This document shows, in pieces, positions 14,490 to 20,436 of a stretch of DNA of 27,131 nt (positions are counted from its first letter, which is position 1; each line of letters begins with the position of its first letter). Both the position numbers and the translations under genes were made by a program. The DNA comes from a virus. The stretch lies in the IMG/VR virus record IMGVR_UViG_3300007519_000614, positions 1-27,131 of that record; one strand, 5' to 3'. A model generated the notes under the pieces. The model did no database searches. It saw only the letters and a program-made list of their open reading frames with translations, and was not told the origin of the DNA.

Positions 14490-14852
14490 ATGAGAAAAGT
14501 AGCATTCGATTTCGATAGTACATTAGATAGAGAAGCTATTCAGAAATATGCATCAGAATTAATGGATAGTGGATATGAGGTTTGGATAGTTACATCTAGG
14601 CCTGAGAAATTCGAAGATGGAGTATGGAGAAATTTTACTCCAGATAATGATGACTTATTCAAAGTCGCAGAAAAACTTGGAATCCCAAGAGAAAGAATTC
14701 ATTTTACAGGATATCAATTAAAGGAAACCTTCTTAAAAGGTAAAGGTTTTGTATTTCTATTAGATGACGATTATGTAGAACTTAGACATACTAATAAATA
14801 TACCAAGTGTGCGGGTATTGGATCACTATCAAGTTCATGGAAAATTAAGTGA
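14490..14852 (+). CDS. HAD-like phosphatase-family protein
   Basis: The 120-aa protein begins MRKVAFDFDSTLDREA, the HAD motif I (DxDxT) with the nucleophilic Asp8 and the second Asp10. Motif II is the Ser/Thr in EVWIVTSRPE, and acidic motif IV residues follow in VFLLDDDYVEL. There is no cap domain, so it is a minimal C0-type HAD protein. Such phage proteins may dephosphorylate nucleotides, sugars or polynucleotide ends; the substrate cannot be read from the sequence. Its TGA stop is followed by 56 more open codons in the same frame. Confidence 0.8.
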   Translation: MRKVAFDFDSTLDREAIQKYASELMDSGYEVWIVTSRPEKFEDGVWRNFTPDNDDLFKVAEKLGIPRERIHFTGYQLKETFLKGKGFVFLLDDDYVELRHTNKYTKCAGIGSLSSSWKIK

Positions 14853-14888
14853 GAAAGGATTATAAATAAAGAAAACGATTGGGATAAA

Positions 14889-15023
14889 TTGTACACCGGT
14901 CTTAGAAATATTGAGAAGGTTCCACACAGAGAGATCAAAACTAAGAGACAATGGATGGAAATTATAAATACTTCAGAAATTAAGTTTGAACGCCTGGTTG
15001 GCACCGGGATATGGTTTAAATAA
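14889..15023 (+). CDS. Small ORF, possible in-frame extension of the HAD-like gene
   Basis: After the TGA at 14850 the same frame stays open to TAA 15021-15023 and looks coding: NDWDKLYTGLRNIEKVPH, then KTKRQWMEIINTSEIKFERL and GTGIWFK. There is no ATG near its start; TTG 14889 is the best conventional candidate and would give 44 residues. It could be a separate small gene with a rare start, a readthrough extension, or a decayed gene. A TATAAATA box at 14861 lies just upstream. Confidence 0.4.
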   Translation: MYTGLRNIEKVPHREIKTKRQWMEIINTSEIKFERLVGTGIWFK

Positions 15024-15036
15024 AAAATGAATTTTT

Positions 15037-15069
15037 TTTGAAATAAACTGAAACTTTATTGTATATTTA
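15037..15069 (+). promoter_or_regulatory. Bacteroidetes-type promoter before the tRNA array
   Basis: TTTG (15037-15040) is followed after 21 nt by TATATTTA (15062-15069), seven of eight matches to the Bacteroidetes -7 consensus TAnnTTTG. It would transcribe the 44-codon leader ORF and the first tRNAs. Confidence 0.55.
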
Positions 15070-15144
15070 CATTATAAGATTATAAATAAACAAAATAACG
15101 GTAAATTATATCGTTCCTTTTAAAAAAAATTAAAACTAACTTCA

Positions 15145-15279
15145 ATGTTAACAACAACAAAAATATCTACAATGTATCATCAACCGATTCCGGTTAATGG
15201 AACAGATTATGGCTTTAATGCCTTTAATCAAGTTCAAGGATGGGCCGATATTAAGGAACCAATTTCCAGTTCGAGTTAA
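15145..15279 (+). CDS. 44-codon leader ORF upstream of the tRNA array
   Basis: ATG 15145 to TAA 15277-15279 encodes a small soluble peptide ending in four serines (EPISSSS). It has its own promoter and is followed 28 nt later by an intrinsic terminator, after which the tRNAs begin. Its last codons (15268-15277) can pair with the 5' arm of the terminator (15311-15320). The layout is therefore that of an attenuator leader peptide. The same plan recurs at 25704-25861. A plain small structural protein is the alternative. Confidence 0.6.
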   Translation: MLTTTKISTMYHQPIPVNGTDYGFNAFNQVQGWADIKEPISSSS

Positions 15280-15306
15280 TGTAAAAAGATAGATTACTAT
15301 ATTTTT

Positions 15307-15339
15307 AAAAAGCTCGAATTATAAATTCGAGCTTTTTTT
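15307..15339 (+). terminator. Terminator/attenuator before the tRNA array
   Basis: A stem AAGCTCGAATT/AATTCGAGCTT (15310-15320, 15324-15334) with a flanking A-run and a seven-T run. The 5' arm has a second possible partner, AGTTCGAGTT at 15268-15277 (10 pairs, two of them G-U), which would prevent the terminator. Confidence 0.85.
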
Positions 15340-15357
15340 GTATAACAAATAATAAAT

Positions 15358-15430
15358 GCGGCTTAAGCTAACCTGGTGGAAGCGAAAGACTGAAAATCTT
15401 TAGGGATTGGTTCGAAACCAATAGGTTGCA
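15358..15430 (+). tRNA. tRNA-Phe(GAA)
   Basis: Anticodon arm AAAGA CTGAAAA TCTTT, T arm ATTGG TTCGAAA CCAAT, acceptor GCGGCTT/AGGTTGC, A73. CCA is not encoded. Confidence 0.9.
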
Positions 15431-15471
15431 CAACAAAAAGAAAACGTTCTTTACATAATTAATTTATACAC

Positions 15472-15544
15472 ACGGGTGTAGTTCAGCTGGTAGAATACCG
15501 GTCTCCAAAACCGACGGTCGTAGGTTCGATCCCTACCACCCGTG
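15472..15544 (+). tRNA. tRNA-Trp(CCA)
   Basis: Acceptor ACGGGTG/CACCCGT with G73 (the Trp discriminator), anticodon loop CTCCAAA, T loop TTCGATC. CCA tail not encoded. Confidence 0.92.
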
Positions 15545-15550
15545 CTTTTA

Positions 15551-15582
15551 GACTGTTTTGTACCTAAAGCATAGATAAATAA
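15551..15582 (+). promoter_or_regulatory. Repeated promoter-like block before a GIY-YIG gene, copy 1
   Basis: TTTTG, then TACCTAAAGCATAGATAAATAA. The block recurs before the other two GIY-YIG genes and before the remnant at the right edge, always 9-17 nt before the start codon when one exists. Confidence 0.5.
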
Positions 15583-15591
15583 AACTTATTT

Positions 15592-16236
15592 ATGCCAAGG
15601 AAAGAAAAGAAGTTTCACTTCATATACAGAACAGCGAATAATGTGACAGGAAAATATTATATTGGAATGCACACGACATATGATATAGACGATGGATATT
15701 TAGGATCAGGAACACGATTAAGATATTCGATACGAAAATACGGAGAAGATAATCATTCAAGAGAAATACTTGAATTTTTAGACTCTCGAATAGAATTAAA
15801 GAAAAGAGAAAAGGATATTGTAAACTTGAATGAGATAGCTAAAGAAGATTGTATGAACTTTAGAATTGGCGGTAATGGATGGCCAGGTAAAGGGACTAGA
15901 ATCGGAGGAGATAAATTTAAAGGAGCCCGTGAGTATTGGAAAGATCCTGAAAATAAAATTAGAATGTCCAAGATTGCATCGGATTCTCTAATTGAACGAT
16001 GGAAGGATCCTAAATTCAAAGAATCTAGATTGAAAGATATAGATTGGACGGGTAGGAAACATACAGAAGACGCTAAACAGAAGATGAGTGATTCTTCGAA
16101 TAATAAAGGAGTTAACAACTCTCAATTTGGAACATGCTGGATTTATAACGATAATGAAAGTAAGAAAATAAAAAAAGAAGACCTAGATTCATTTATTAAT
16201 AATGGATGGAATAGAGGAAGAAAATTGAAATTTTAA
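15592..16236 (+). CDS. GIY-YIG homing endonuclease 1 (Seg-like)
   Basis: The N-terminal 90 residues form a GIY-YIG nuclease: FIYRTANNVTGKYYIGMHTT carries the two signature strands, followed by SREILEFLDS and a Glu/Asn-containing helix. Basic DNA-binding repeats of NUMOD3 type follow (WTGRKHTEDAKQKMSDSSNNKG), then a conserved C-terminal box (NSQFGTCWIYN, KKIKKEDL, WNRGRKLKF). It lies between tRNA-Trp and tRNA-Ala, like free-standing Seg genes of T4-like phages that home next to tRNA genes. It has two full relatives in the window (18008, 19255) and a remnant (27052). The target site is unknown; the empty site would be the Trp-Ala spacer. Confidence 0.88.
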   Translation: MPRKEKKFHFIYRTANNVTGKYYIGMHTTYDIDDGYLGSGTRLRYSIRKYGEDNHSREILEFLDSRIELKKREKDIVNLNEIAKEDCMNFRIGGNGWPGKGTRIGGDKFKGAREYWKDPENKIRMSKIASDSLIERWKDPKFKESRLKDIDWTGRKHTEDAKQKMSDSSNNKGVNNSQFGTCWIYNDNESKKIKKEDLDSFINNGWNRGRKLKF

Positions 16237-16246
16237 AACTTAAAAT

Positions 16247-16322
16247 GGGGGTGTAGCTAAACTGGCTTAGCACCACGTTTGCAACGTGACGTATGCGGGT
16301 TCGAATCCCGTCGCTTCCACCA
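16247..16322 (+). tRNA. tRNA-Ala(TGC)
   Basis: Acceptor GGGGGTG/CGCTTCC with two G-U pairs, A73 and an encoded CCA (16320-16322). Anticodon loop TTTGCAA, T loop TTCGAAT. Confidence 0.9.
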
Positions 16323-16329
16323 TTTAAAA

Positions 16330-16346
16330 GTTCTTTGACATCTTGG
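16330..16346 (+). promoter_or_regulatory. boxA-like element GTTCTTTGACATCTTGG
   Basis: The same string (one base different) occurs at 25862-25878 just before another tRNA group, and GTTCTTTGA occurs at 23378 before structured RNAs. It resembles the GTTCTTTGA sequence in Bacteroidetes rRNA leaders and the boxA antitermination signal. It could alternatively be a TTGACA promoter element. Confidence 0.4.
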
Positions 16347-16387
16347 TTATTATCTATCAGAATAGTGGAAAAATTCATTTTACATTA

Positions 16388-16437
16388 GTTCTATAAACGC
16401 AGCCACACTTCGTCCGAAGAAAATGCAAATTTAGAAC
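16388..16437 (+). other. Structured spacer hairpin
   Basis: GTTCTA (16388-16393) pairs with TAGAAC (16432-16437), and CTTCG/CGAAG forms an inner hairpin. No tRNA fold is possible. It may be a processing hairpin between tRNAs. Confidence 0.35.
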
Positions 16438-16445
16438 AATTATAC

Positions 16446-16517
16446 GCTTGGGTAGCTCAGAGGCAGAGCAATCGACTGTTAATCGATGGGTCGGGATTTC
16501 AAAATTCCCCCTGAGCG
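16446..16517 (+). tRNA. tRNA-Asn(GTT)
   Basis: Anticodon arm ATCGA CTGTTAA TCGAT, acceptor GCTTGGG/CCTGAGC, G73. The T arm is atypical (TTTCAAA in place of TTCGANN). Confidence 0.87.
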
Positions 16518-16529
16518 CAAATAATAAAT

Positions 16530-16613
16530 GGGGTCGCGCTGGAGTTGGAGAGCCAGGGCAGTCTGTAAAATTGTTGACTTATGTCTGAATGGGTTCGAAT
16601 CCCTTATGCCCCA
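16530..16613 (+). tRNA. tRNA-Tyr(GTA), class II
   Basis: Anticodon arm GCAGT CTGTAAA ATTGT and a long variable arm as expected for bacterial tRNA-Tyr. The acceptor GGGGTCG/ATGCCCC has two unpaired positions at its base, and the T stem has a T-T mismatch. Confidence 0.85.
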
Positions 16614-16619
16614 CAACAT

Positions 16620-16691
16620 GCTCGGTTCGTCTAACGGCCAGGACCTATGGTTTTCATCCATAAAATAGGGGTTCGATTCCCCTACCTAGTA
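16620..16691 (+). tRNA. tRNA-Glu(TTC)
   Basis: Anticodon arm TATGG TTTTCAT CCATA; T arm AGGGG TTCGATT CCCCT; acceptor GCTCGGT/ACCTAGT with one C-T mismatch. Confidence 0.88.
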
Positions 16692-16710
16692 CTAAAAATA
16701 AACAAATAAA

Positions 16711-16763
16711 AATGAAACACTCAAAGATCATAGAGTGACTTAGAATCATGCAGCTAAGTCATT
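16711..16763 (+). ncRNA. Two-hairpin, three-way-junction structure between tRNAs
   Basis: AATGA (16711-16715) pairs with TCATT (16759-16763) and encloses two adjacent hairpins, CACTC/GAGTG and ACTTAG/CTAAGT. It has no T-loop signature. It is either a processing structure or a small RNA. Confidence 0.35.
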
Positions 16764-16790
16764 CGATAATCGCAATATGTATTAGAGAAT

Positions 16791-16864
16791 GATTTCGTAG
16801 CTCAGTTGGTTAGAGCACCTCACTTTTAATGAGGGAGTCGTGGGTTCGAGCCCCACCGGGATCA
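16791..16864 (+). tRNA. tRNA-Lys(TTT)
   Basis: Acceptor GATTTCG/CGGGATC, A73; anticodon arm CCTCA CTTTTAA TGAGG; T arm GTGGG TTCGAGC CCCAC. Confidence 0.93.
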
Positions 16865-16878
16865 CATTAGAGATTAGG

Positions 16879-16917
16879 CCTAGTAAAGCATCTTTCCTTA
16901 GTGGAAACGTAACTAGG
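16879..16917 (+). other. Spacer hairpin
   Basis: CCTAGT (16879-16884) pairs with ACTAGG (16912-16917), and TTTCC/GGAAA forms an inner stem. Possibly a tRNA processing hairpin. Confidence 0.35.
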
Positions 16918-16922
16918 TATAT

Positions 16923-17000
16923 GGTGGTTATAGCTCAGTTGGTTAGAGCGCACGGTTGTGGTCTGTGAGGTCGTCGGTTCGATCCCGACTTTCCACCCCA
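16923..17000 (+). tRNA. tRNA-His(GTG)
   Basis: Has the His-specific extra G at position -1 opposite C73, an anticodon loop TTGTGGT and an encoded CCA. The acceptor GTGGTTA/TTTCCAC contains two T-T mismatches. Confidence 0.9.
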
Positions 17001-17009
17001 ATATTACAA

Positions 17010-17082
17010 TGTCCTATGGTGTAATTGGCAACACGTCGGTTTTTGGTACCGAAGAGTCCAGGTTCGAGCCCTGGTGGGACAA
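17010..17082 (+). tRNA. tRNA-Gln(TTG)
   Basis: Acceptor TGTCCTA/TGGGACA with the T1-A72 pair typical of Gln, anticodon arm TCGGT TTTTGGT ACCGA, A73. Confidence 0.92.
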
Positions 17083-17289
17083 CAAAAAGAGAGAAACATT
17101 TGCAGAAATATTAAGTGAACCATATCACGAATATTATTGGAAATCTATATAACGAACTCAACGTATCAACGCAAAGGCTAAGACAAACCGTGAGCTAATG
17201 AAAGGGTAGACAGGCGGAAAGCAAGGAGTATAGAAAGTATAATAATAGGAAGGATATAAAGTACCTTAGCAGAGTATGCCGTGTGGATG
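17083..17289 (+). other. Spacer with a short gene remnant
   Basis: About 200 nt without a tRNA. Positions 17083-17151 read as a protein-like fragment without a start (KKRETFAEILSEPYHEYYW), probably the tail of a lost gene. I see no structure or gene in the rest. Confidence 0.35.
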
Positions 17290-17373
17290 ATAATAGTATA
17301 GCTCAGTTGGCAGAGCAGGGGACATCATTTGCGTTTTAAACCCCGCGTCGGAGGTTCGAGTCCTTCTATTATA
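17290..17373 (+). tRNA. Atypical tRNA-like gene with expanded anticodon loop
   Basis: Acceptor ATAATAG/CTATTAT (7 perfect pairs), D arm GCTC/GAGC and T arm (G)GAGG TTCGAGT CCTT(C) are clear. Four nucleotides instead of two join acceptor and D arm. The anticodon stem GGGG/CCCC encloses 19 nt instead of about 9, so the anticodon cannot be assigned. Removing about 10-12 nt would give a normal loop. Either it is a degenerate gene or its loop carries an insertion that is removed or tolerated. Confidence 0.6.
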
Positions 17374-17398
17374 ATTATGAAGCACGTTAAAATTATAC

Positions 17399-17473
17399 GG
17401 TTCCGCAGTCCAGTCCGGAGTGGACGCCTCCCTGTCACGGAGGAGATCGAGGGTTCGAATCCCTTCGGAACCG
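17399..17473 (+). tRNA. tRNA-Asp(GTC)
   Basis: Acceptor GGTTCCG/CGGAACC, G73 (Asp identity), anticodon arm CCTCC CTGTCAC GGAGG. Confidence 0.93.
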
Positions 17474-17698
17474 CATTTAATTATCGATAGTTTAATGGTT
17501 AAGTAATAGTAAGTAAAATAAGTAGACATCAAAGATCTAATGTTAAAAGGTTTATCGAAATTACAACAGTTTAGAACATGAGCAGTTGAGGCCCAAGGTG
17601 CAGTATCAATTCTGCAAAGATAATTAATAATTCGTTAACCTAATAATTCAGTGATTAACCGAAGTAGAGTATTAAATAAAACAAATAAAGGAGAAACA
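17474..17698 (+). other. Spacer with possible tRNA debris
   Basis: No intact gene. The start (TATCGATAGTTTAATGG) resembles the 5' part of a Gly/Glu-type tRNA without a matching 3' part. The rest shows no clear coding or structure. Confidence 0.3.
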
Positions 17699-17770
17699 AT
17701 GAAGCGATTAATCGTAAGAATTATGAAAGTAATTAATGAAGGAGGAATATTTTTTCCACCACACAAGTAA
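17699..17770 (+). CDS. 23-codon ORF with a Shine-Dalgarno
   Basis: ATG 17699 to TAA 17768-17770. AAAGGAGAAAC lies 2-12 nt before the ATG, one of very few good Shine-Dalgarno sequences in the window, where most genes have none. The peptide is basic at the start and ends FFPPHK. It directly precedes tRNA-Pro. Could be a genuine small peptide or a chance ORF. Confidence 0.35.
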   Translation: MKRLIVRIMKVINEGGIFFPPHK

Positions 17771-17776
17771 ACCAAT

Positions 17777-17852
17777 CGGGACTTAGAGGAGTCCGGTTTA
17801 TCTCGCTTGCTTTGGGAGCAAGAGCACGGGGGTTCGAATCCCTCCGTCCCGA
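17777..17852 (+). tRNA. tRNA-Pro(TGG)
   Basis: C1-G72 acceptor CGGGACT/CGTCCCG, A73, anticodon arm CTTGC TTTGGGA GCAAG, T loop TTCGAAT. Confidence 0.9.
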
Positions 17853-17882
17853 CACTAATTTTATCGCAGATATTTAACACAA

Positions 17883-17955
17883 GCAGGATGTAGCTTAATG
17901 GCTTAAAGCATCACACTTCCAATGTGAGGACGGGGTTCGATTCCCACATTCTGCT
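17883..17955 (+). tRNA. tRNA-Gly(TCC)
   Basis: Acceptor GCAGGAT/ATTCTGC, T73 (Gly discriminator), anticodon arm TCACA CTTCCAA TGTGA. Confidence 0.92.
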
Positions 17956-17960
17956 CCTTT

Positions 17961-17991
17961 AACTTTTTTGCACTTGACTTTAGATAAATAA
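17961..17991 (+). promoter_or_regulatory. Repeated promoter-like block, copy 2
   Basis: AACTTTTTTG followed by a spacer and TAGATAAATAA, 16 nt before the second GIY-YIG gene. Confidence 0.5.
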
Positions 17992-18007
17992 ATAAAACGA
18001 TTTACTA

Positions 18008-18634
18008 ATGTCAAGGACAAAAAAGTATCATTACATTTACAAAACAACGTGTAATATATCAAATAGATATTATTACGGAATGCACTCAACTGATAATTTA
18101 AACGATAGTTATATCGGAAGTGGAACCAGATTATGGCATTCTATTAATTACCATGGAAGAGAAAATCATTCTATGGAAATATTAGAATATTTAGATAATC
18201 GCGATTTACTTAAATTAAGAGAACGTGAATTAATAAATGAAGATATGTTAAAAGATCCAATGTGTATGAATCTCAAAGTTGGAGGAGAAGGAGGAGGATT
18301 CACAGAAGCTCAATATAAAAAGGGAGCTCACACCATGCTTAAAAAAATATGGAATGATCCTGAATTTAGAAAAAGAAAATCTATATCTTCATCTAAAAAT
18401 ATTAAACATTTATTATCTGAAGGAATCATAAAAGCTCCAGATTGGACTGGTAGAAAACATTCAGATGAAACTAAAAAGAAAATGAGTGAATCATCTAATA
18501 ATAAAGGATCTAAAAATTCTCAATTTGGAACATGTTGGATTTATAATGAAATTGAAAGTAAGAAAATTAAAAAAGAGGAGATTGTTTATTATTTAAAATC
18601 TGGTTGGAATAAAGGTAGAAAATTAAATTTCTAA
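18008..18634 (+). CDS. GIY-YIG homing endonuclease 2 (Seg-like)
   Basis: The nuclease core is HYIYKTTCNISNRYYYGMHSTDN followed by LWHSINYHGRENHSMEILEYLDN. NUMOD3-type repeats follow (DWTGRKHSDETKKKMSESSNNKG), with the same C-terminal box as copy 1 (NSQFGTCWIYN, WNKGRKLNF). The YIG strand reads YYG, so the second signature Ile is a Tyr. It lies between tRNA-Gly and the 94-aa ORF. Its N-terminal half is closer to copy 3 and its C-terminal half to copy 1, which suggests exchange between copies. Confidence 0.87.
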   Translation: MSRTKKYHYIYKTTCNISNRYYYGMHSTDNLNDSYIGSGTRLWHSINYHGRENHSMEILEYLDNRDLLKLRERELINEDMLKDPMCMNLKVGGEGGGFTEAQYKKGAHTMLKKIWNDPEFRKRKSISSSKNIKHLLSEGIIKAPDWTGRKHSDETKKKMSESSNNKGSKNSQFGTCWIYNEIESKKIKKEEIVYYLKSGWNKGRKLNF

Positions 18635-18684
18635 AAATAACGCTACCGCCCGAAACCTTTAATAGAAATAAAGTATTAGATAAC

Positions 18685-18969
18685 ATGACGGCATTGAATT
18701 ATCTAAAGCTTATAAAGAATGCTGAATTTCTTGGAAGATCTAGAATTGATGGACATCCAATGTATAGAGCTTGGATTGGAAAAAATCCAAGAACTAGAGG
18801 ACTAGACACTGTTAAATTTAAGTATGACGAATCCAATAAAACTCATAGCATAATTAAAGAAATTGATTATGTTAGAGGATATCAAGATACGCATGGATTA
18901 GTATCAGATGGAATAGTCGGTCCAGTAACTATTAGAGTTGCACGATATAGAAATGACGATATTATTTAA
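18685..18969 (+). CDS. Unknown 94-aa protein with PG_binding_1-like end
   Basis: The C-terminal third (RGYQDTHGLVSDGIVGPVTIRVA) follows the pattern of peptidoglycan-binding domain 1 (FQxxxGLxxDGIVGPxTxxxL), but a full three-helix domain is not obvious. The first part is basic and unknown. It is a solitary protein gene inside the tRNA array, between a homing endonuclease and a tRNA-like RNA; possibly carried there by the endonuclease. Confidence 0.6.
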   Translation: MTALNYLKLIKNAEFLGRSRIDGHPMYRAWIGKNPRTRGLDTVKFKYDESNKTHSIIKEIDYVRGYQDTHGLVSDGIVGPVTIRVARYRNDDII

Positions 18970-18972
18970 GAA

Positions 18973-19040
18973 TTTGGGACCGGTATACTCAATTCGGTGG
19001 TGAGGCAATTGTGATGGAGATCCTTTGCCCTCCCAAACCA
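18973..19040 (+). ncRNA. tRNA-like RNA lacking an arm, with encoded CCA
   Basis: TTTGGGA (18973-18979) pairs perfectly with TCCCAAA (19031-19037), followed directly by CCA. Inside are only two hairpins, CCG/CGG and GGCAA/TTTGCC; there is no T-loop. Length 68 nt. The next tRNA begins 1 nt later, so RNase P and tRNA nucleases would free it in any case. Confidence 0.55.
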
Positions 19041-19041
19041 T

Positions 19042-19115
19042 GGCGATGTAGCTCAGTTGGCTAGAGCGTAGGATTCATAAACCTGAGGTCATCAGTTCGA
19101 TTCTGATCATCGCTA
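19042..19115 (+). tRNA. tRNA with CAT anticodon (Met or Ile2)
   Basis: Acceptor GGCGATG/CATCGCT, A73; anticodon loop TTCATAA. The purine-rich stem and lack of initiator features make it elongator Met or a lysidine-modified Ile tRNA; the sequence alone does not settle which. Confidence 0.88.
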
Positions 19116-19130
19116 CAAAAAGAGATTTAT

Positions 19131-19203
19131 TGCGGGGTAGAGCAGCTGGTAGCTCGTTAGGCTCATAACCTAGAGGTCGTCGGTTCGAGTCCGGCCCCCG
19201 CTA
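19131..19203 (+). tRNA. tRNA-fMet(CAT)
   Basis: Initiator features: an unpaired 1-72 position (T1/T72), GCGGGG/CCCCGC stem, and D arm GAGC AGCTGGTA GCTC nearly identical to bacterial initiator tRNA. Anticodon loop CTCATAA. Confidence 0.92.
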
Positions 19204-19208
19204 CTTTT

Positions 19209-19238
19209 AACTTTTTGTTCCTAAGTATAGATAAATAA
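19209..19238 (+). promoter_or_regulatory. Repeated promoter-like block, copy 3
   Basis: AACTTTTTG, then TTCCTAAGTATAGATAAATAA, 16 nt before the third GIY-YIG gene. Confidence 0.5.
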
Positions 19239-19254
19239 AATAAACTTATTTACT

Positions 19255-19887
19255 ATGCCTAGGAAACAAAAAGTTTATCATTACATTTATAAAACGACAT
19301 GTAATATATCAAATATATATTATTATGGAATGCATTCCACTGATAATTTAGAAGATGGATATATTGGAAGTGGAACTAGACTATGGCACTCTATTAACTA
19401 TCATGGAAAAGAAAATCACTCAATTGAGATCTTAGAATATTTAGATGATAGAAAATCTCTAAAATATAGAGAAAAAGAATTAATTAAAGAGGAAACACTA
19501 AAGGATCCAATGTGTATGAATTTAGCATTAGGTGGTGAAGGCGGCATTAGAAATAAAAAACATGCTAAAAAATTCCACAAAGCAGGAGGTCGTAAGGTTC
19601 TTCAGATGATGAGTAAAATACATCACAATAAATTAAAAAGTGACGTGGGGTATAGAGAAAAATATTGTAAATCTGTATCTGAATCATTAAAAGGAGAAAA
19701 GAATCCAATGTTTGGAAAATCTCACTCCATTGAAACTAAAAAGAAAATGAGTAAGTCTTCTAATAATAAAGGTCAGAATAACTCTCAATTCGGTAAACGT
19801 TGGATAACAAACGGAACTGAAAATAGAAAAATTGATAAGTTTATGGACATTCCAGAAGGATGGAGTCCAGGTAGAAAACTTAAATGA
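19255..19887 (+). CDS. GIY-YIG homing endonuclease 3 (Seg-like)
   Basis: GIY-YIG core HYIYKTTCNISNIYYYGMHSTDN, then HSIEILEYLDD with the helix residues. NUMOD3-like motifs follow (NPMFGKSHSIETKKKMSKSSNNKG), and the C-terminal box is divergent (NSQFGKRWITN, PEGWSPGRKLK). The first 95 residues are nearly the same as copy 2; the rest is unrelated to it in the middle. It lies between tRNA-fMet and a group of tRNA-like RNAs. Confidence 0.87.
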   Translation: MPRKQKVYHYIYKTTCNISNIYYYGMHSTDNLEDGYIGSGTRLWHSINYHGKENHSIEILEYLDDRKSLKYREKELIKEETLKDPMCMNLALGGEGGIRNKKHAKKFHKAGGRKVLQMMSKIHHNKLKSDVGYREKYCKSVSESLKGEKNPMFGKSHSIETKKKMSKSSNNKGQNNSQFGKRWITNGTENRKIDKFMDIPEGWSPGRKLK

Positions 19888-19890
19888 CAC

Positions 19891-19964
19891 ATGCCGGATA
19901 ATACTCATGTTTATCCATGAGCCGGCTCCAATTAGTTACGTAAGTCCAGGTAACCGCCCGGCAT
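19891..19964 (+). ncRNA. tRNA-like RNA lacking an arm
   Basis: ATGCCGG (19891-19897) pairs with CCGGCAT (19958-19964). Inside are CTCATG/CATGAG with loop TTTATC, and GTTAC/GTAAC. A competing pairing (GCCGG with CCGGC at 19920-19925) would give a single long hairpin. Total 74 nt, no T-loop. Confidence 0.45.
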
Positions 19965-19984
19965 TGACATTAACATTATCATTA

Positions 19985-20117
19985 AGAGGATTAGTATATT
20001 CTTCCTTCACTAAATCCAAACAGGTGGTCCCGAGTTCGAATCTCGGTCTCTTCTTAGGAAGAGGTAGCTCAGTCGGTAGAGTCCCTGTCTCATAATAGAA
20101 TATACACTTACCTTTTT
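19985..20117 (+). ncRNA. Structured RNA motif, copy a (encloses the permuted tRNA)
   Basis: P1 AAGAGG with CCTTTT; internal loop ATTA (19990-19993) opposite ACTTA (20106-20110); P2 GTATATTC (19994-20001) with GAATATAC (20098-20105), 8 perfect pairs; then TTCCTTC. The interior is a tRNA in permuted order. A T-run follows P1. Confidence 0.7.
20020..20095 (+). tRNA. Circularly permuted tRNA, anticodon CAT
   Basis: The 3' half comes first: ACAGG (anticodon stem), TGGTC, T arm CCGAG TTCGAAT CTCGG, acceptor TCTCTTC. A TTAG loop then leads into the 5' half: acceptor GAAGAGG, TA, D arm GCTC/GAGT, anticodon stem CCTGT, loop CTCATAA. CCTGT pairs with ACAGG and the acceptor strands pair in all seven positions, so every helix of a tRNA is there with the break in the anticodon loop. 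The amino acid would be Met or Ile. Confidence 0.75.
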
Positions 20118-20124
20118 ATTTTAT

Positions 20125-20198
20125 ACGAGTATAGCTCAGTTGGTTAGAGCGCAACACTGATAATGTTGAGGTCGCAAGTTCAAATCTTGCTATTCGTA
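20125..20198 (+). tRNA. tRNA-Ile(GAT)
   Basis: Acceptor ACGAGTA/TATTCGT, A73; anticodon arm CAACA CTGATAA TGTTG. Confidence 0.93.
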
Positions 20199-20201
20199 CA
20201 T

Positions 20202-20299
20202 TGAGGATTAGAAATTACTTCCTTCTTTTTATTGGTTCGATTCCAATAAAGACTGCTAATACCGGTCTTTAGGTTAACTTAGAAATTTCACTTACCTCA
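20202..20299 (+). ncRNA. Structured RNA motif, copy b (with T-arm-like hairpin)
   Basis: P1 TGAGG/CCTCA; ATTA opposite ACTTA; P2 GAAATT/AATTTC; then CTTCCTTC. The interior has a T arm (ATTGG TTCGATT CCAAT) and AAAGAC/GTCTTT closed by a loop, as if a permuted acceptor stem, but no D or anticodon arm. The interior is similar in sequence to 26348-26400. Confidence 0.65.
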
Positions 20300-20305
20300 T
20301 TATTT

Positions 20306-20380
20306 AGTCTCATAGCTCAGTTGGTTCAGAGCATTTGCCTTACAAGCAAGAGGTCGTAGGTTCGACTCCTACTGAGACTA
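20306..20380 (+). tRNA. tRNA-Val(TAC)
   Basis: Acceptor AGTCTCA/TGAGACT, A73; anticodon loop CTTACAA; T arm GTAGG TTCGACT CCTAC. Confidence 0.93.
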
Positions 20381-20436
20381 CTAGAAATAATAACCAAGAA
20401 TGTCAATCGCTAATAAATAATAAAAAATAACAAGAC

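Follow-up and report, generated by a model that had tools for sequence, protein, structure and literature searches.

Organization of the leader preceding the first tRNA operon

What is the function of a promoter, a short open reading frame and a terminator placed before an array of tRNA genes in a phage? This question is raised by the viral DNA analysed here (referred to as the window: the 27,131 nucleotides of the IMG/VR record IMGVR_UViG_3300007519_000614), where such elements precede the tRNA-Phe at position 15358, the first gene of the tRNA operon 1 (15358-20381). All features described for the two leaders and the two operons of the window are on the + strand. A promoter-like site TTGAAA-18-TATATT is localized at positions 15038-15067. 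It is followed by the leader ORF 1 (15145-15279), which starts with ATG and encodes in 44 codons the peptide MLTTTKISTMYHQPIPVNGTDYGFNAFNQVQGWADIKEPISSSS, and by an intrinsic terminator (15307-15337) displaying 14 pairs, a loop of 3 nt and a T-run, the tRNA-Phe being found 20 nt downstream. Segment 2 of this leader is the sequence AGTTCGAGTT (15268-15277), which overlaps the stop codon and has the 5' arm of the terminator as partner. Its alternative partner, segment 3, is the sequence AGCTCGAATT (15311-15320) included in this arm, and AGTTCGAGTT:AGCTCGAATT form 10 contiguous pairs, two of them G-U. The first-pass annotation of this DNA had described the succession of promoter, 44-codon ORF, terminator and tRNA array, as well as the 10-pair complementarity between the end of the ORF and the terminator arm; all the coordinates of this layout hold and the complementarity is confirmed.

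The RNA fold of leader 1 is better than that of 200/200 shuffles (z -4.7). The pairing itself is equalled by 2% of dinucleotide shuffles of the upstream 110 nt, and is thus, taken alone, just moderately unlikely. The identification of leader 1 as a known gene was rejected, since tblastn of its protein over phage records gave no match and the DNA matches were obtained via tRNA-Phe only. Matches to the leader pattern in the contigs L006 and L008 were also rejected as chance occurrences inside longer genes. Upstream of the leader, the region 14490-15023 corresponds to a single gene of 177 amino acids in the related contigs L004 and L013, and is interrupted in the window by a TGA in frame (14850-14852), a Cys codon being found at this place in the relatives.

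A second leader and the composition of the two operons

The tRNA operon 1 is composed of F W A N (Y) E K H Q D P G M M I V and serves 15 amino acids (F W A N Y E K H Q D P G M I V). The tRNA-Tyr (~16537-16613) was read by eye in the window and is called by ARAGORN at the corresponding place of L013. In the sensing stretch of leader 1 (codons 10-39, 15172-15261), 29 of the 30 residues belong to the set of operon 1, whose 15 amino acids are all present, with one residue from outside. Over its whole length, leader 1 is devoid only of Cys and Arg, and the tRNAs for both belong to operon 2. This correspondence of peptide and tRNAs is absent from the first-pass annotation.

We have detected in the window a second leader of the same design (25637-25859), absent from the first-pass annotation and localized before the second block of tRNAs. 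Its promoter-like site (25637-25666) is identical to that of leader 1 in both hexamers and in spacing. The leader ORF 2 (25704-25802) encodes in 32 codons the peptide MKTPLNISNLNSSTSLCTSIRRYRSGNVFKES, which has no relation to the peptide of leader 1. Segment 2, GATCAGGC (25774-25781), is included in this ORF and is complementary to the arm GCCTGATC (25830-25837), the segment 3 of the terminator 25826-25859. The tRNA operon 2 (25892-27016) is composed of S(UGA) T C R(UCU) L(UAA) L(UAG) M, with S(UGA) read by eye, and extends past the end of the window with S(GCU) and R(ACG). It serves S T C R L M, so that Met is the sole amino acid in common with operon 1. The residues S, T, C, R and L are abundant in leader 2, which uses over its whole length both codon families of Leu, of Ser and of Arg. 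Tests of the peptide/tRNA correspondence restricted to the window are post hoc and give p values from ~0.02 down to 0.0003, according to the test and the null.

Several other features were observed within and around the tRNA blocks. Operon 1 contains between its tRNAs three related ORFs resembling homing endonucleases (15592-16236, 18008-18634 and 19255-19887), of which one has a NUMOD3 motif and parts are ~80% identical in DNA. In operon 2, a tRNA-like sequence (26085-26158) is called neither by ARAGORN nor by Rfam; its acceptor strands match in L010 (GGATTAAT..ATTAATCC). The region 23380-23848, between an ORF of 712 amino acids and a tRNA with anticodon CUA (24118-24194), has no ORF, ends with a strong terminator and is probably a non-coding RNA, for which Rfam gave no significant match. 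The stem of this terminator is different yet paired in L013 (CCTCCACC..GGTGGAGG vs CCAGACC..GGTCTGG). This terminator before the tRNA-CUA (23826-23848) displays neither a leader ORF nor a 2:3 partner. The tRNA-CUA is followed by an ORF whose ATG is at 24248 and whose codon 9 is an in-frame TAG (24272-24274), after which the frame is open to 25189; it may be a suppressor-dependent gene. Just past the end of the window, near-perfect repeats of 60 bases (L014:1050-1750, - strand) encode a repetitive protein.

Conservation of the leaders in related contigs

Leader 1 is nearly identical, from promoter to terminator, in the related contigs L004 (IMGVR_UViG_3300035034_001183) and L013 (IMGVR_UViG_3300026097_000012). 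The first-pass annotation had made its reading depend on the conservation of the alternative pairing in relatives, and the pairing segments and the terminator arms of leader 1 are fully conserved in L004 and L013. The ORF is nearly so, with an in-frame indel of 3 nt across the relatives (an insertion in one contig). Despite this conservation of leader 1 the neighbouring proteins have diverged, the sigma factor being 72% identical in L004. The tRNA-Phe that follows leader 1 in L013 has a sequence clearly unlike that of the window, which indicates that leader 1 is not just carried along with this tRNA. The homologue of leader 2 found in L013/L010 has one codon fewer, and one mismatch is observed within the 2:3 pairing of the relative's leader 2. 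Between orthologous leaders, compensatory changes are found in the 2:3 pairing, for example AGGTTCGA/TCGAACTT vs AGATTCGA/TCGAATCT.

Distribution of the design in other phages

The contig IMGVR_UViG_3300022868_000009 (344 kb), reached via a weak protein match, contains five leaders, each matching its own tRNA cluster: MLNININMIINLLLEEIWDWL before L,L,I,E,N,I,M (the leader of this operon reads MLNININMIINLLLEEI...), MNLNFNIMAVVVRTGTPTRPVAGTVIPT... before P,T,G,R,V,V,A, MINNLTYQIENLDIICLDNYLQ... before D,Q,(Y),C, MNNTFKHNSSSFHKWFSRFG... before H,W,F and MIIININSKSKKNSRLK... before K,K,S,S. The E,Y,P,F,R cluster of the same contig has only a weak leader with the tiny ORF MKNYEIEDDRVMF and no terminator, and was excluded from the count. 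An operon composed of Gln tRNAs only has the leader MTTSFQQQQQQQINRTD. The design is also present in four phage genomes of 462-735 kb (LR756502, LR756500, LR756501 and LR745206) and in the cultured Tenacibaculum phage Gundel_1 (MT732474), where MKTKLYSYSCFSSWFKNRAG is followed by two tRNAs below threshold, read as Tyr and Trp, and then by Phe, Ser, a Cys-like tRNA and Ser. In the blind scan described below, it was found in 8 phage lineages or records, including the window and its relative. No such leader was found at the tRNA arrays of the phages Vibrio Thalassa, Aeromonas CC2, Klebsiella Trex_ER12, Xanthomonas XacN1 and Bacteroides DAC19, nor at that of LR745208. Being absent from these five other cultured phages and from LR745208, the design is not general to phage tRNA clusters. 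The promoter pattern of Bacteroidota is TTTG...TATATTTG; the promoters before several leaders fit it, which suggests that the hosts are Bacteroidota.

Correspondence between leader peptides and tRNA operons

In the blind scan, terminators were selected for lying ahead of tRNAs, and the sole criterion for the ORF was that it overlap the segment able to pair with the terminator arm; amino acid composition was not used. Most of the records were scanned with this composition-blind rule after the hypothesis had been formed. The statistics were calculated on 30 non-redundant leaders, in which the picks L032 and L034, probably false, were retained. In the codons upstream of segment 2, 263 of 539 residues match the leader's own operon vs 120 expected (z 10.7 vs reassigned operons). 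This excess of 143 residues compares with a mean of 3 (sd 13) after reassignment of the operons, the best of 20,000 reassignments reaching 59 and none (0/20,000) equalling the true match. The other reading frames (+1 and +2) show no match signal, with z of 0.0 and -2.4, respectively. For each of the four phages having 4-8 leaders, no permutation of the assignment surpasses the true one, which ranks first, alone or tied. The coverage of the own operon is of 97%, vs 61% after reassignment.

The match is concentrated upstream of segment 2 (307/593, for 152 expected), as compared with the residues in or after this segment (103/332, for 71 expected). The control codons are thus upstream of segment 2 as in ribosome-mediated attenuators, and what the leader encodes agrees with the products of the downstream operon, as is expected for this class of attenuators. 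At the level of isoacceptors, Leu and Arg match well and Ser indifferently, which is partly due to tRNAs missed by ARAGORN. In operons where Leu tRNAs of the two codon families coexist, both families are used by the leader in five cases out of six, and the leader of an operon with five Leu tRNAs contains all six Leu codons.

Alternative pairing and folding

The 2:3 pairing is better than that of shuffles (p<0.05) in 24/30 leaders vs 5/42 ordinary terminators of the same loci (Mann-Whitney 3e-9), with a slight bias in favour of the leaders, since a minimal 2:3 score was needed for a pick. In the six other leaders, the complementarity falls short of p<0.05. Three of the 42 control terminators display a 2:3 complementarity at p<=0.01; these may be attenuators of other genes.

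The antiterminator (2:3) and the terminator (3:4) are mutually exclusive. When folding was modelled with arm 3 emerged and a ribosome stalled in the core, the 2:3 pairing was almost complete (median of 0.98 of the pairs), so that stalling should switch the tRNA operon on; with segment 2 hidden, 3:4 forms. In leader 1 of the window, the two structures are close in energy (-15.3 and -14.9 kcal/mol), and the order of synthesis and the position of the ribosome can therefore decide between them. In the model, the RNA upstream of a terminating ribosome was counted as inaccessible. The finishing ribosome would cover segment 2, as it does at the stop codon of the trp leader, in 12 of the 32 picks, among them leader 1 of the window. 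In the 20 others, leader 2 included, segment 2 ends 9-26 nt ahead of the stop codon, which would place the terminating ribosome between segments 2 and 3 and not on segment 2. In ribosome-mediated attenuators a 1:2 protector hairpin imposes termination when translation is lacking. When folding of the phage leaders was performed without a ribosome, 2:3 still forms in most of them, and a failure of initiation would thus look like stalling; in a few leaders segment 2 is sequestered upstream.

Proposed mechanism and alternative explanations

We propose, with a probability of about 0.88, that a ribosome-mediated attenuator precedes each tRNA operon and that its leader peptide is a multi-codon test strip for the tRNAs of that operon. 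RNA polymerase would start at the promoter and transcribe the short leader ORF, whose codons would be those read by the tRNAs of the same operon, and then the intrinsic terminator. With all these tRNAs plentiful and charged, the ribosome would reach the end of the ORF and cover or pass segment 2, the 3:4 hairpin would form and the tRNAs would not be made. If any of them were scarce, uncharged or cleaved, the ribosome would stall upstream, 2:3 would pair in the place of the terminator and the operon would be transcribed, restoring the missing tRNA. Such phages would probably measure their tRNA supply by test translation, with tRNAs being made only if the reading of a codon is slow. The direction of this control, from a stall or lack of translation to transcription of the tRNAs, is predicted from the anatomy and the folding; we infer from the sequences its direction, its strength and a role against tRNA depletion (host tRNA decay, anticodon nucleases, starvation). 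Attenuation as such had been proposed in the first-pass annotation, and is supported by the mutually exclusive and conserved pairing, by the presence of a second leader in the window and by the ~30 non-redundant candidates. Its suggestion that translation is sensed is to be refined: beyond translation as such, the leader probably samples the codons of the downstream tRNAs.

A generic translation sensor, reporting only the movement of ribosomes whatever the identity of the codons, is improbable: the alternative pairing would respond to any block of translation, and forms even without a ribosome, but the composition of the leaders follows the downstream operon in a single frame and above all 20,000 reassignments. 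Still less probable is the presence of small functional protein genes followed by ordinary terminators, the tRNAs being transcribed by constant read-through or from other promoters. These ORFs are conserved, leader 1 almost letter for letter in three contigs; however, unrelated peptides occupy the same position before different operons, and sequences such as QQQQQQQ, RTGTPTRPVAGTV and NININMIINLLLEE are lists of tRNAs and little like proteins. Many terminators are moreover within ~20 nt of the first tRNA, which leaves little room for a further promoter. Chance, or an artefact of the scan in AT-rich phage DNA, is hardly credible: although single 2:3 pairings are moderately improbable at best and the hypothesis came after the window and the 344-kb contig had been seen, the post-hypothesis scanning of most records by a composition-blind rule, the frame and permutation controls, and the six other phage tRNA arrays scanned without such a leader all contradict it. 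The test-strip attenuator very likely represents a kind of control of tRNA operons that is widespread in large phages, whose hosts are probably Bacteroidota. Each phage would distribute its tRNA set over several operons, each leader would test-translate exactly the codons of its operon, and the depletion of one tRNA would induce only the operon that encodes it.

Comparison with known systems

Ribosome-mediated attenuators are known from the enteric amino-acid operons trp, his, leu, thr, ilv and pheA and from pheST of E. coli. The phage leaders share with them a short leader ORF with control codons, an exclusive antiterminator/terminator pair and the decisive position of the ribosome; a short ORF with the appearance of being translated, placed between promoter and terminator and showing in-frame indels in relatives, is also as in attenuators. 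Contrary to these systems, the targets of the phage leaders are tRNAs and not biosynthetic enzymes or synthetases, a leader may sample up to 15 amino acids, the product of the operon (tRNA) would directly cure the stall, and the setting is that of phages. With the T-box riboswitches the phage leaders share a choice between terminator and antiterminator tuned to the supply of charged tRNA, but T-boxes lack a leader ORF and recognize a single tRNA by direct binding. No T-box covariance-model match at the Rfam gathering score was found in the window or L004, nor any of the Rfam leader families (for example Phe_leader RF01859 and Thr_leader RF00506), only tRNAs reaching gathering. The Gundel_1 leader has a Phe_leader score of 27.9 against 55.

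The tRNA arrays of phages have been proposed as a counter to host anticodon nucleases (PMC10264068; PMC11555353). The arrays described there and those analysed here represent the same class of genes with the same proposed need, tRNA depletion during infection; leaders, attenuation and tRNA operons are not mentioned in these two papers. The paper on huge-phage clades (PMC7162821) mentions tRNAs 35 times, and attenuation or leaders 0 times. In the open-access literature, to which the search was restricted, no control of tRNA operons by a leader peptide was found. The type of mechanism is known, and the target, the breadth of codons sampled and the setting appear to be new.

The purpose of tRNA arrays in phages is a decades-old subject of debate. 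Leaders that name the tRNAs of their operons would mean that the phage measures a shortage at precisely those codons, which favours the tRNA-depletion view of phage tRNAs over that of a constant codon supplementation, and makes testable which tRNA losses induce which operon. Attenuation would be extended from one or few amino acids to as many as fifteen. The leaders also offer a way to read from sequence the boundaries of tRNA operons and the tRNAs that are not annotated.
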